From: Vibrio sp. HB236076
GTDB lineage: Bacteria; Pseudomonadota; Gammaproteobacteria; Enterobacterales; Vibrionaceae
Direction: 5' to 3'
Length of the DNA stretch: 64,000 bases
Assembly (NCBI RefSeq): GCF_040957575.1
Contig: NZ_CP162601.1
Coordinates: 186,001-250,000, forward strand
Of this stretch, positions 1 to 29,050 are shown piece by piece (position 1 is the first letter of the stretch; each line of letters opens with the position of its first letter). The notes beneath the pieces were generated by a model. The model saw only the letters and a list, made by a program, of their open reading frames with translations, was not told the DNA's origin and searched no databases. The position numbers were made by a program, and so were the translations under genes.

Positions 1-265
1 TGGGGTGATCGCAGGGGTTTATGCGACTAAAACCAATTTGTCTGCTGAAGAATACGGTGAAGGCAGTTTTACCAAAGGTTTTTACCTGTCCATTCCTATG
101 GACATCTTGATGGTGAAACCCAGCACGAGTCGCTTGAAGTTCTCTTGGCAGCCGCTGACCCGTGATGGCGGACAGATGCTCAACCGCAAGTATGAACTTT
201 ATGATGTGACCGATCCCAGATCGCCTTGGTATAGCCGAGCAATCCCGGACTCAAGGTTACCTTAA
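1..265 (+). CDS. YjbH-type exopolysaccharide/outer-membrane protein, C-terminal fragment
   Basis: Only the last 87 codons are in the window; the frame is open at the left edge, so the gene starts outside it. The end of the protein carries FYLSIPMD and WQPLTRDGGQML, which I recognise as the conserved C-terminus of the YjbH family (DUF940), large outer-membrane proteins tied to exopolysaccharide secretion operons. That family usually sits at the end of a yjbEFGH-like operon, and the strong terminator at 294-320 right after the stop fits an operon end. The family assignment rests on this short tail alone. Confidence 0.7.
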   Translation, partial: GVIAGVYATKTNLSAEEYGEGSFTKGFYLSIPMDILMVKPSTSRLKFSWQPLTRDGGQMLNRKYELYDVTDPRSPWYSRAIPDSRLP

Positions 266-25284: not shown

Positions 25285-25830
25285 ATGTCATCCAGTGAAC
25301 AAAATTTGATTTGGATAGATCTTGAAATGACAGGATTGGATCCTAAAACCCATAAAATTATTGAAATTGCTACCATAGTGACCGATGCTGAGCTCAATGT
25401 GTTGGCTGAAGGCCCAGTGATCGCCATTACACAGCCTGAGCATGAATTGGCGAAAATGGACGACTGGTGTACTCGTACACACACAGAAAGTGGCTTAGTT
25501 GAGCGCGTGCGTCAAAGCGATATTGATGAAGCTGAGGCGGCCGCACAAACAATCGCCTTTCTTGAGCAATGGGTACCCAAAGGCAAGTCACCGATTTGCG
25601 GGAATAGTATTGGCCAAGACCGACGCTTTTTAGTTGAGGGCATGCCAGAGCTCGAAGCGTATTTCCACTACCGTTATCTCGACGTTAGTACCATCAAGGA
25701 ACTGACTCGACGTTGGTCACCTGACTTACTCGAGGGCCTCAACAAAAAAGGCAGTCATTTGGCGTTGGACGACATTCGCGATTCGATTGCTGAGTTAAAG
25801 TATTATCGACAACACGTGTTTAAAATTTGA
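25285..25830 (+). CDS. orn: Oligoribonuclease
   Basis: DEDDh exonuclease of 181 aa that degrades 2- to 5-base RNAs, including pGpG from c-di-GMP breakdown. Active-site residues are visible: D and E in [13 protein letters not shown] in [11 protein letters not shown] and D in [13 protein letters not shown] hairpin TTTTGCGGGATC/GATCTCGCAAAA (25844-25870) follows the stop and may end the transcript, although it lacks a T-run. Confidence 0.98.
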
Positions 25831-25941
25831 TTTTAAACCGTGCTTTTGCGGGATCGTCGATCTCGCAAAATGAGCATAGCTGACTTTTTGGTTATTTTTG
25901 CAGCGGTTGAATTAAAAAAGCAAAAAAAGTGTAAGAAGGAC

Positions 25942-25969
25942 TTGCATCACAAAAAAAAGCACTTATAAT
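25942..25969 (+). promoter_or_regulatory. Promoter of the tRNA array
   Basis: TTGCAT (25942-25947), a 16-base spacer and perfect TATAAT (25964-25969), with a GC-rich discriminator (CGCAGCCC) as is usual for stable-RNA promoters. The first tRNA begins 32 bases later. Confidence 0.75.
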
Positions 25970-26001
25970 TCGCAGCCCTAAACAGCGGAAACGTTGTTAA
26001 A

Positions 26002-26077
26002 GCGACACTAGCTCAGTTGGTAGAGCGCAACCTTGCCAAGGTTGAGGTCACGAGTTCGAACCTCGTGTGTCGCTCCA
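26002..26077 (+). tRNA. tRNA-Gly (GCC), copy 1
   Basis: 76 bases including encoded CCA. Acceptor GCGACAC/GTGTCGC, anticodon loop TTGCCAA, T arm with GTTCGAA. Identical to the five other glycine copies. First gene of the array. Confidence 0.97.
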
Positions 26078-26113
26078 AAACATACAGTTTTCATTGTACT
26101 TAACAATGACAAA

Positions 26114-26189
26114 GCGACACTAGCTCAGTTGGTAGAGCGCAACCTTGCCAAGGTTGAGGTCACGAGTTCGAACCTCGTGTGTCGCTCCA
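26114..26189 (+). tRNA. tRNA-Gly (GCC), copy 2
   Basis: Identical in sequence to copy 1, after a 36-base spacer. Its spacers (CATACAGTTTTCATTGTACT-like) are nearly the same on both sides, showing duplication of a tRNA-plus-spacer unit of 112 bases. Confidence 0.97.
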
Positions 26190-26225
26190 AATTATACAGT
26201 TTTCATTGTACTCAACAATGACGAA

Positions 26226-26301
26226 GCGACACTAGCTCAGTTGGTAGAGCGCAACCTTGCCAAGGTTGAGGTCACGAGTTCGAACCTCGTGTGTCGCTCC
26301 A
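26226..26301 (+). tRNA. tRNA-Gly (GCC), copy 3
   Basis: Third identical glycine tRNA at the same 112-base period. The spacer after it changes to the type that precedes initiator tRNAs. Confidence 0.97.
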
Positions 26302-26336
26302 AAGTTTACACATTATCGCATCTGCGGTAACACGGA

Positions 26337-26413
<77 letters not shown>

Positions 26414-26462
26414 CATTTAAAACAGTGATATATCATTGTTTTAAGCAGAGATAAAATCTCTT

Positions 26463-26538
26463 GCGACACTAGCTCAGTTGGTAGAGCGCAACCTTGCCAA
26501 GGTTGAGGTCACGAGTTCGAACCTCGTGTGTCGCTCCA
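26463..26538 (+). tRNA. tRNA-Gly (GCC), copy 4
   Basis: Same sequence as copies 1-3. Starts the first of three Gly-fMet units repeating every 241-243 bases. Confidence 0.97.
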
Positions 26539-26574
26539 AAAATTTATACATTATCGCATCAGTGATAACACGGA

Positions 26575-26651
<77 letters not shown>

Positions 26652-26705
26652 CATTTTATTGTGATGATCATCATCGCAATCCAAGAAAGATATCAACTTT
26701 CTCTT

Positions 26706-26781
26706 GCGACACTAGCTCAGTTGGTAGAGCGCAACCTTGCCAAGGTTGAGGTCACGAGTTCGAACCTCGTGTGTCGCTCCA
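26706..26781 (+). tRNA. tRNA-Gly (GCC), copy 5
   Basis: Same sequence as the other glycine copies; second Gly-fMet unit. Confidence 0.97.
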
Positions 26782-26817
26782 AAAATTTACACATTATCGC
26801 ATTAGCGATAACTCGGA

Positions 26818-26894
<77 letters not shown>

Positions 26895-26946
26895 CATTTT
26901 ATCGTGATGGCCATCATCACAATTCAAGAAAGATAGACTTTCTCTT

Positions 26947-27022
26947 GCGACACTAGCTCAGTTGGTAGAGCGCAACCTTGCCAAGGTTGAGGTCACGAGT
27001 TCGAACCTCGTGTGTCGCTCCA
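26947..27022 (+). tRNA. tRNA-Gly (GCC), copy 6
   Basis: Same sequence as the other glycine copies; third Gly-fMet unit. Confidence 0.97.
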
Positions 27023-27057
27023 AAATTTACACATTATCGCATCAGTGATAACACGGA

Positions 27058-27134
<77 letters not shown>

Positions 27135-27291
27135 CATTTTGGATTCTTGCTCTTTTCTAATGCTGAGAAGCATCATCCCCCTAGATTTGTGATTACAAGC
27201 TTTGTTTTCTTTCGTTGTGGAAGAAATCAATCGGCTTGCTCGCCTCGTTATTCCTCGTATTCTTGAAAAATAAACAAGATAATCCCCAGAG

Positions 27292-27574
27292 TTATCCACA
27301 TTTTATTACTTGTGGATAAGTTGGTTGATAAAGTGTTTTCAGGATGGGGAATAGTGCTAGTAGCTTTGGATCTTTACTCGATAAATTTCGATATAATATT
27401 CTAACTAGTGCTTTAAGTTGTTGTTTTTAATTGTTTTTAACTGTGATAAAAGGAAATAGCTTGATAAGATCAGGATCATTCACTAAATTTTCCTTGATCT
27501 TTGTCATTAATTCAGTTTGTGTTTAACTTTTCTCAGCACATCGTAAAACGTGATTTTTATACGCTTTTTCCACA
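27292..27574. other. datA: DnaA-box cluster at the position of E. coli datA
   Basis: The 470-base AT-rich gap between the tRNA array and queG has no gene. It carries two perfect DnaA boxes facing each other, TTATCCACA (27292-27300) and TGTGGATAA (27311-27319), ten bases apart, and a one-mismatch box TTTTCCACA (27566-27574). In E. coli the DnaA-titrating locus datA lies in the same place, between the glyVXY tRNAs and queG, so position and content agree. A one-mismatch IHF site (AAATAGCTTGATA, about 27454) is possible. That this is a working datA is inference; fewer boxes are seen than the five in E. coli. Confidence 0.5.
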
Positions 27575-27604
27575 TTGAGTACTTGACGAGTTTAAAGCAA
27601 ACGA

Positions 27605-28732
27605 TTAAGCATCTCTTGGCAGCCCCTTTTCTACGATTCGAATTAATCGTTGTTTTTTGCGTTCAATACTCGAGCGAACGGCCGTGGGTAATTGCTTTTG
27701 CTGCTGTTCTAGCGCCCATTCGATATGTGGGTCGAGTAAATCACTTTTGCCGCGAGTTGCGATAAGCGCCGAGACAATCTCTTGTCGATAAGGGGCATTG
27801 CCCATCGCGATAATTAAATTGCGTTGCCATTGTTCGTGTCCAATACGGCGAATGGCCGAGCCTTGCATTTTGTCGAGAAACGTCGCTTCATCCCAGGAAA
27901 ATAAACTGAGTAAATCAGCGTCTTCAAGGGCTTGGCGGCGATGAAAATCCTCTTCATCAGTGATATCGGAAAAGCGATTCCAGGGACACACCAATTGACA
28001 GTCATCACAGCCATAGATGCGGTTACCGATGGCTTGGCGAAATTCTTCGGGGATCACACCGCTGTACTCTATGGTCAGATACGAAATACAGCGCCGCGCG
28101 TCAATCACGCCATCGGCAATAATGGCATCGGTTGGGCACGAGGTGATACAGGCTTTGCATTGTCCACATTGATTCTCGACCGGTTGATCGACAGGCAAAG
28201 GCAAGTCGACCAATAACTCTCCTAAAAAGAACCAAGAGCCAGACTCGCTGTCTAAGATAAGAGAGTGTTTTCCGGTCCAGCCTAAGCCTGCTTTTTCGGC
28301 TAATGGTCGCTCGAGGATGGGGGCCGAATCAACAAAGGGACGAAATCCGTACTGGCCGACTTCCTCTTCAATGCGTTTGCCAAGCTTAGTCAGTTGCTTG
28401 CGGACGAGTTTGTGATAATCACGACCAAGGGCATAGCGACTGATATAAGCCTGCTGTGGTTGTTTGAGGTCTGCCGCAAATTGCGCTTCTGGCGGTAGGT
28501 AATTGATTCGCACACTGATCGCGCGCACGGTTCCTGGGTGTAACTCGGCAGGCCGAGCGCGCATCATACCGTGGCGAGCCATCCAATCCATACTGCCGTG
28601 ATAGCCAGCGTCTAGCCAACGTTGCAGTTGCCCTTCGTGCTCTCTAAGATCAACGTCACAGATACCTACTTTTTGAAAGCCAAACTCCTTGCCCCAGGCT
28701 TTAATTTTTTCTGCCAGTAGAGTGTAATCCAT
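27605..28732 (-). CDS. queG: Epoxyqueuosine reductase
   Basis: Cobalamin-dependent enzyme of 375 aa that reduces epoxyqueuosine to queuosine in the wobble position of tRNAs. Two 4Fe-4S motifs are visible: CGQCKACITSCPTDAI and CDDCQLVCPWN. The N-terminus KIKAWGKEFGFQKVGICD and the C-terminal HEAT-like end EWALEQQQK fit the family. It is divergent from tsaE, as in E. coli, but nnr, which normally precedes tsaE, is missing. Confidence 0.97.
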   Translation of the reverse strand: MDYTLLAEKIKAWGKEFGFQKVGICDVDLREHEGQLQRWLDAGYHGSMDWMARHGMMRARPAELHPGTVRAISVRINYLPPEAQFAADLKQPQQAYISRYALGRDYHKLVRKQLTKLGKRIEEEVGQYGFRPFVDSAPILERPLAEKAGLGWTGKHSLILDSESGSWFFLGELLVDLPLPVDQPVENQCGQCKACITSCPTDAIIADGVIDARRCISYLTIEYSGVIPEEFRQAIGNRIYGCDDCQLVCPWNRFSDITDEEDFHRRQALEDADLLSLFSWDEATFLDKMQGSAIRRIGHEQWQRNLIIAMGNAPYRQEIVSALIATRGKSDLLDPHIEWALEQQQKQLPTAVRSSIERKKQRLIRIVEKGLPRDA

Positions 28733-29050
28733 GGTTGAACTCCAGAAAATTGAAGGGCGAGGATCTTAACGGATCTTTGCGCTTGAAACCAGAGAGGATA
28801 GCGAGCTTCGAGCACTTTTTCAGCTCATTCGTTCGGTTTTTTACTGTGGGGTCATTGACCGGTTATCGACTTGCCATTCTGGCGTGAAAAGCGAGTCTGT
28901 TCACTGGCTAAAAAGTGACACTAGTGCGGAAAACGACTACTATTGTCGGCTATTTGTCTGATTGCTGACAATCCTAGGCTTGTCGAGTAAAAGGACAAAG
29001 GTTTACTATATTTTTGTTTTGTCGCTGTTTTTGATTAGAGTACTTTTATC
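28733..29050. promoter_or_regulatory. Divergent queG/tsaE control region
   Basis: 318 bases without a gene. An imperfect inverted repeat ATTGTCGGC (28942-28950) / GCTGACAAT (28964-28972) could be an operator. In E. coli the nnr gene lies in this position; I see no trace of it. Confidence 0.35.

Follow-up and report, generated by a model that had tools for sequence, protein, structure and literature searches.

We report that an intergenic gap in Vibrio sp. HB236076 is probably the Vibrionaceae datA, orthologous to the Escherichia coli site that inactivates DnaA, the protein which starts replication, and acting, as that site does, by datA-dependent DnaA-ATP hydrolysis (DDAH). The gap lies in a 64,000-nt stretch of contig NZ_CP162601.1 (positions 186,001 to 250,000; hereafter the window, from whose first letter plain coordinates are counted), where a sequence-only reading had described 470 AT-rich bases between a tRNA array and queG as a candidate datA. 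Coordinates and composition agree with that description: the gap spans 27135-27604 (470 bp; 33% GC versus 47% for the whole window), between the end of the last tRNA at 27134 and the queG open reading frame (ORF) at 27605-28732 on the minus strand. Its place is that of datA in E. coli K-12, with Gly tRNAs, the gap and queG in succession, so the neighbourhood claimed by that reading is confirmed. Its position and its sites, with their order and orientation, place the predicted locus among datA elements, as a variant whose DnaA-box array is mirrored and not as a compact form. Vibrio is a model for two-chromosome replication, and a conserved datA would offer chromosome 1 a candidate DnaA off-switch.

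The three DnaA boxes on which the proposal rested are exactly present, namely TTATCCACA at 27292-27300 (plus strand), TGTGGATAA at 27311-27319 (minus strand) and TTTTCCACA at 27566-27574 (plus strand), and alignment with relatives adds further elements. From left to right, the gap carries a weak box 7 and a strong box 2 (both plus), their mirrors 2' and 7' (both minus), a site for integration host factor (IHF), box C (minus) and box 3 (plus). Box 2, the first of the three, has the same place, orientation and flank (ACAGAG) as its namesake in E. coli datA, and its columns are 96-100% conserved in 146 aligned Vibrionaceae loci. Box 7 (TAATCCCCA, 27280-27288, plus) lies 12 bp before box 2 and mostly ends in AACA or CACA in relatives; its columns ACAGA are kept in 92-100% of the loci. 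Mirror box 2', absent from E. coli datA, is separated from box 2 by a 10-bp spacer, and a weak mirror of box 7, box 7' (27323-27331, reading TTATCAACC on the minus strand), follows 12 bp beyond 2'. Box 7 shows one to three misfits to TTWTNCACA in 139 of the 146 loci and box 7' in 133, as against 89 of 1,168 9-mers with zero to three misfits at eight control offsets. Box C (TTAAACACA on the minus strand, 27518-27526) has an invariant TGTG and a TAA kept in 99-100% of the loci, and is recovered by a stricter pattern in 131 of 146. The counterpart of box 3 reads TTTTCCACA in 138 loci, TTATTCACA in one and, by alignment, TTGTCCACA in the other seven. The bases flanking boxes 2 and 2' (27291, 27320 and their counterparts) are C..C in 59 loci, G..G in 37 and C..G or G..C in 21.

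The convergent pair is well beyond chance expectation and is widespread. Among 20,000 dinucleotide shuffles of the gap, 62 contained at least one perfect box and none contained two, in line with the earlier judgement that two perfect boxes within 30 bases are unlikely by chance; the window as a whole has four perfect boxes against 0.40 expected, and the 3.88-Mb genome has 47. The looser pattern TTWTNCACA occurs in the window about as often as expected (8 against 7.8), so weight rests only on the perfect pair and on how well it is conserved. The pattern TTATCCACA-N6..14-TGTGGATAA was found in 178 of 196 Vibrio genomes, at one place in 173 and at two in 5 (it is identical on both strands, so each place counts double in raw matches). 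Together, the excess in the window, the shuffles and this occurrence led us to reject a chance origin of the pair.

The pair also keeps its place. QueG was found in 60 of 61 Vibrio genomes searched and in 78 of 81 genomes of the family, and the pair precedes the queG stop in 60 of 60 Vibrio genomes (37 perfect with N10, 16 perfect with N9 and 7 with one mismatch and a spacer of 10), adjacency to queG being established for these 60 rather than for all 178. Extending the set across Vibrionaceae with named records gave 156 loci, of which 154 had a pair with at most two mismatches and 146 were distinct (named and unnamed loci may share genomes); two loci without a pair at this threshold, L129 (gap of 234 bp) and L125 (QueG match cut short), were dropped. 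The boxes are thus conserved in near relatives, both beside queG and across the 146 loci. Their spacers comprise 138 different sequences among the 146 loci while holding a length of 9-10 bp; anchoring of these loci permitted only 9 or 10, and searches permitting 6-14 still gave 9-10 beside queG among the matches listed. Box 2' is mostly TGTGGGTAA in some genera (7 of 8 named Photobacterium loci and, under our genus handles, 10 of 15 in g8, 14 of 14 in g3 and 2 of 2 in g7). Of 48 alignment columns conserved in at least 90% of loci, 45 fall in box 7 (ACAGA), 2, 2', 7' (GT...T), the IHF core, box C and box 3, leaving only a T at 27495 and TC at 27597-27598. In genus g11, perfect inverted-repeat arms of 20 bp cover 7-2 and 2'-7' in 6 of 13 loci (L072, L075, L082, L084, L085 and L090), and one Vibrio locus (L037) has inverted-repeat arms of at least 30 bp.

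In E. coli datA, boxes 2, 3 and 7, oriented in one direction, and a single IHF site are described as essential (PMC5742627). Boxes 7, 2 and 3 of the window likewise point in one direction with 7 adjoining 2, the window's box 7 being weak and atypical at 27286. A predicted IHF-type site (AAACAACAACTTA, 27414-27426, minus strand) agrees with the consensus at 8 of 9 positions, and at least 7 of 9 are matched in 137 of the 146 loci (taking the best match within 2 bp of its aligned position), with an invariant TG core, compared with 376 of 3,796 background windows. An alignment-free search gave the same answer: among 85 loci with a unique best minus-strand match in the range +60..215, 70 had it at +118..126 from box 2, whereas the plus-strand control gave 3 of 69. 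The earlier reading had proposed conservation of an IHF site as a check, and the check came out in its favour: across Vibrionaceae, boxes 2 and 3 enclose an IHF-type site just as they do in E. coli datA, and we predict a single such site for the family. The genome of Vibrio sp. HB236076 encodes IhfA and IhfB, as well as SeqA.

The spacing of these elements is longer than in E. coli and appears to follow a rule. Box 2 and box 3 are 261-281 bp apart in Vibrionaceae and 159-165 bp apart in enterobacterial-type loci; the compact form in the initial suggestion is thus refuted, and the orthologous datA-type locus that it named first is supported. Counting the start of the IHF site (I) and the start of box 3 (D) from box 2, and defining the offset as D - 2I, we obtained I/D of 122/274 and an offset of 30 for the window, and 65/162 and an offset of 32 for E. 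coli K-12. The offset is 29-33 in 129 of 146 Vibrionaceae loci and exactly 31 in 97, with I/D pairs that include 120/271, 121/273, 122/275, 123/277, 124/279 and 125/281. Four of the 146 have other offsets (L052, an alignment error with an IHF match at +122, and three loci without an IHF match of at least 8). Among loci with offset 25-40 the arms correlate at 0.83, a permutation over 27 genus/arm combinations gives P = 0.003, and we regard the register signal within Vibrionaceae as moderate. In the 32 enterobacterial-type loci the offset is 29-33, most commonly as 65/161 (offset 31; 19 of 32), a count limited by seeking the IHF site only at +60..71, where L147 and L148 have no real match; with no range limit, a minus-strand IHF site with at most one mismatch lies at +64..67 in 23 of the 32. 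The 32, which include K-12 and of which two are both E. coli, were picked from 44 loci by having a box pair 155-170 bp apart; ten of the other 12 come from non-enterobacterial genera, and Kluyvera and a Pluralibacter metagenome-assembled genome are enterobacteria lacking the pair by the pattern used. The simplest reading, already proposed for E. coli datA (PMC5742627), is that IHF would fold the DNA and that the complexes of DnaA on box 2 and on box 3 have to come together in a fixed register.

Several observations weigh against a datA of this kind. Box 7 of the window has a C at 27286, where the family has A in 99%. The window's IHF site carries one mismatch, and an equally good minus-strand match occurs at 27454, away from the conserved place; loci of genera g5 and g6 have no IHF match of at least 8/9. 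The offset is 21-22, about one helical turn less, in 13 of 146 loci, including V. splendidus-type records, and over 18 distinct arm pairs the arms correlate at only 0.34. The register match between families is a single comparison, and the species are not independent. The absolute spacing of E. coli, where spacing is said to matter for function (PMC5742627), is not kept (274 bp in the window versus 162 bp in K-12).

Even so qualified, a datA with DDAH-type action accounts best for the locus. ATP-DnaA would bind one arm at boxes 7 and 2 and the other at box 3, and IHF would fold the intervening DNA, bringing both arms together in fixed register; DnaA-bound ATP would then be hydrolysed, as in the DDAH reaction of E. 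coli, and the level of ATP-DnaA would fall once the locus has been copied, early in replication. The mirror boxes 2' and 7' with box C would form a second, opposed set of DnaA sites and probably strengthen or gate the complex; by coordinates, the distance to the centre of the window's IHF site is 105 bp for 2' and 102 bp for C. What we observe are the sites with their order, orientation, spacing and conservation; DnaA and IHF binding, folding, DnaA-ATP hydrolysis and an effect on initiation are what we infer from them.

The most serious rival, though an improbable one, is a plain titration site that binds DnaA tightly without promoting ATP hydrolysis. Six conserved boxes near oriC would titrate DnaA, and titration has been argued for E. 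coli (PMC12371093), yet titration by itself requires no IHF site, fixed orientations or matched arms. We consider it very unlikely that the opposed boxes act as a DnaA-reactivating sequence (DARS), joining DnaA head to head so that ADP is released and DnaA reactivated. The geometry is suggestive, in that DARS boxes I and II are opposed (PMC8682772) and in E. coli DARS1 two strong boxes likewise converge and a third follows 12 bp further on, but the DARS1 spacer is 5 bp as against 9-10 in Vibrionaceae, about half a helical turn apart; moreover, DARS-spaced convergent pairs (TTATCC-N8-TGTGGATAA) sit elsewhere in 41 of 41 Vibrio genomes searched, and the genomic place is that of datA. We therefore rejected identity with a DARS core on the spacer.

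Two further alternatives concern transcription from the tRNA array. Scanning 27000-27800 revealed no intrinsic terminator (0.9 expected in shuffles) and no T tract, a result that leaves room for a DnaA roadblock halting read-through from the array into queG antisense; indeed, E. coli DnaA box 2 reduces read-through into datA (PMC10950094). As the sole function, a roadblock has little to recommend it, leaving the IHF site, box C, box 3 and the matched arms unexplained, although it may be an added side function. That the inverted repeat acts instead as an RNA hairpin of the tRNA transcript is the least credible of the readings. The window hairpin does fold better than shuffles (z of -3.3 for 49 nt and -2.5 for 76 nt), and perfect 20-bp arms recur in the six g11 loci, but none of 47 changed stem cells is doubly compensated: 36 leave a G-U pair and 11 break pairing, a test not decisive alone, since most of the changes leave a G-U pair. 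In addition, the outer flanking bases are unpairable (C..C or G..G) in 96 of 146 loci versus 21 with C..G or G..C, and the T tract is missing. A search of 25500-28900 against Rfam at E up to 1 returned tRNAs only and no other known RNA.

A datA orthologue also fits the setting of the gap. Both neighbours converge on it, the tRNAs from the left and queG from the right, and because both end at the gap, neither neighbour's promoter accounts for the conserved sites; a promoter scan of the gap gave one weak promoter-like match versus 1.7 expected. The queG gene, with its 3' end at the gap (27605-28732, minus), corresponds to the stretch annotated as queG in E. coli, and the surroundings agree as well. 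The array, previously called tRNA-Gly, does adjoin the gap and is directed toward it (26002-27134, plus), but holds six Gly (GCC) and four Met (CAT) tRNAs, not Gly alone: three Gly come first, followed by Met and Gly alternating through to the array end. By eye, the Met genes resemble initiator tRNAs. The oriC of this genome, which we recognised through ORFs taken by eye to be mnmG and mioC and through the two perfect boxes that they enclose, lies elsewhere, about 221 kb away from the gap (contig taken as circular). Across 28 genomes in which a single contig of at least 2.4 Mb, taken as circular, carries queG and matches mnmG in full (G011, with a partial mnmG match, and G021, with a short contig, were left out), the queG-to-mnmG distance is 223-475 kb with a median of 283 kb, or 8.7% of the chromosome (range 6.8-13.4%). 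The locus is thus oriC-near, as befits a datA duplicated early; E. coli datA lies at about 10 centisomes (PMC4585315).

A pair of GATC sites 22 bp apart (27474 and 27496; 27474-27499, no strand assigned) adds a candidate Dam/SeqA site. Such a pair, at +150..230 and 18-26 bp apart (mostly 22), is present in 76 of 80 Vibrio loci, 13 of 13 in g11 and the single loci of g4 and g9, and in none of 51 loci of the other Vibrionaceae genera. A role for SeqA here is a guess. As a tentative and rather doubtful extension, we envisage a two-sided Vibrionaceae datA in which 7-2 faces 2'-7' and C answers 2' from almost the same distance to the IHF site, with the register kept since the enterobacterial split by equal growth of the arms and with SeqA holding the GATC pair in Vibrio and g11 after fork passage. 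If so, the SeqA hold, at GATC sites two helical turns apart, would tie DnaA inactivation to replication of the locus itself. We know of no SeqA link for E. coli datA, and no search for one was made.

Elsewhere in the genome, convergent pairs with the 5-bp DARS spacer occur once per contig (G000:C1:1953482 and G000:C2:771660, both outside the window); a core of DARS type on the second chromosome would merit attention. A second perfect N10 pair (L132, G000:C1:2130672-2130699) lies inside an ORF, presumably purU judging by eye, and was taken as coincidence; in 191 of 196 Vibrio genomes the number of such pairs is one or zero. Two divergent perfect boxes 26 bp apart (L136, G000:C1:90925-90968) lie downstream of an ORF resembling hemB by eye and share the flank AAACAGAG with datA box 2.

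Beyond Vibrionaceae, perfect boxes near the queG end appear only in L147-L150 among 24 out-of-family loci (L141-L164), so the arrangement is not general in the order. In the QueG gene tree, the family we call f11 groups with enterobacteria (support 0.98), and its locus has two forward boxes 165 bp apart without an IHF match. Literature searches listed no paper on Vibrio datA among their matches, "datA" being indistinguishable there from "data"; a 2018 review of two-chromosome replication presents DARS-like sites for V. cholerae and, in its excerpted text, names datA only for comparison with RctB sites (PMC6090056). The longer, mirrored natural design would set a second reference beside E. coli, in which the mechanism was worked out, and its matched arms make a testable rule of the model of DDAH by IHF folding.

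Set beside its E. coli counterpart, the locus combines shared and added parts. The K-12 gap contains box 1, box 2, TTGTAAACA twelve bp before box 2 (taken as E. coli box 7, a name from the literature and an assignment of ours), IHF TATCAATAGGTTA at +65, box 3 at +162 and then an opposed box. A direct arrangement of boxes 7 and 2, 12 bp apart and with the flank ACAGA[GC], is shared by E. coli, Vibrionaceae and all 32 enterobacterial-type loci that have a box 2/3 pair. Common to both are the place, the one-direction boxes 7, 2 and 3, an IHF site on the same strand between 2 and 3, and proximity to oriC; nearly common is the offset, 32 in K-12 and mostly 31 in Vibrionaceae. Only Vibrionaceae have mirror boxes 2' and 7', box C and arms each about 55-60 bp longer, together with a box 3 of type TTTTCCACA, no recognised counterpart of box 4 and, in some genera, the GATC pair. 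The predicted counterparts of datA elements are two plus-strand boxes (27292 and 27566), the IHF site and the weak box 12 bp ahead of the first, and the convergent pair itself is the non-E. coli part. With the E. coli DARS1 and DARS2 cores, the locus shares convergent boxes and, for DARS1, a further box 12 bp beyond; it differs in spacer and in genomic place. With E. coli oriC it has in common a strong box flanked by ACAGAG, opposed arrays, and IHF and GATC sites, whereas the oriC of its own genome stands apart from it on the chromosome.
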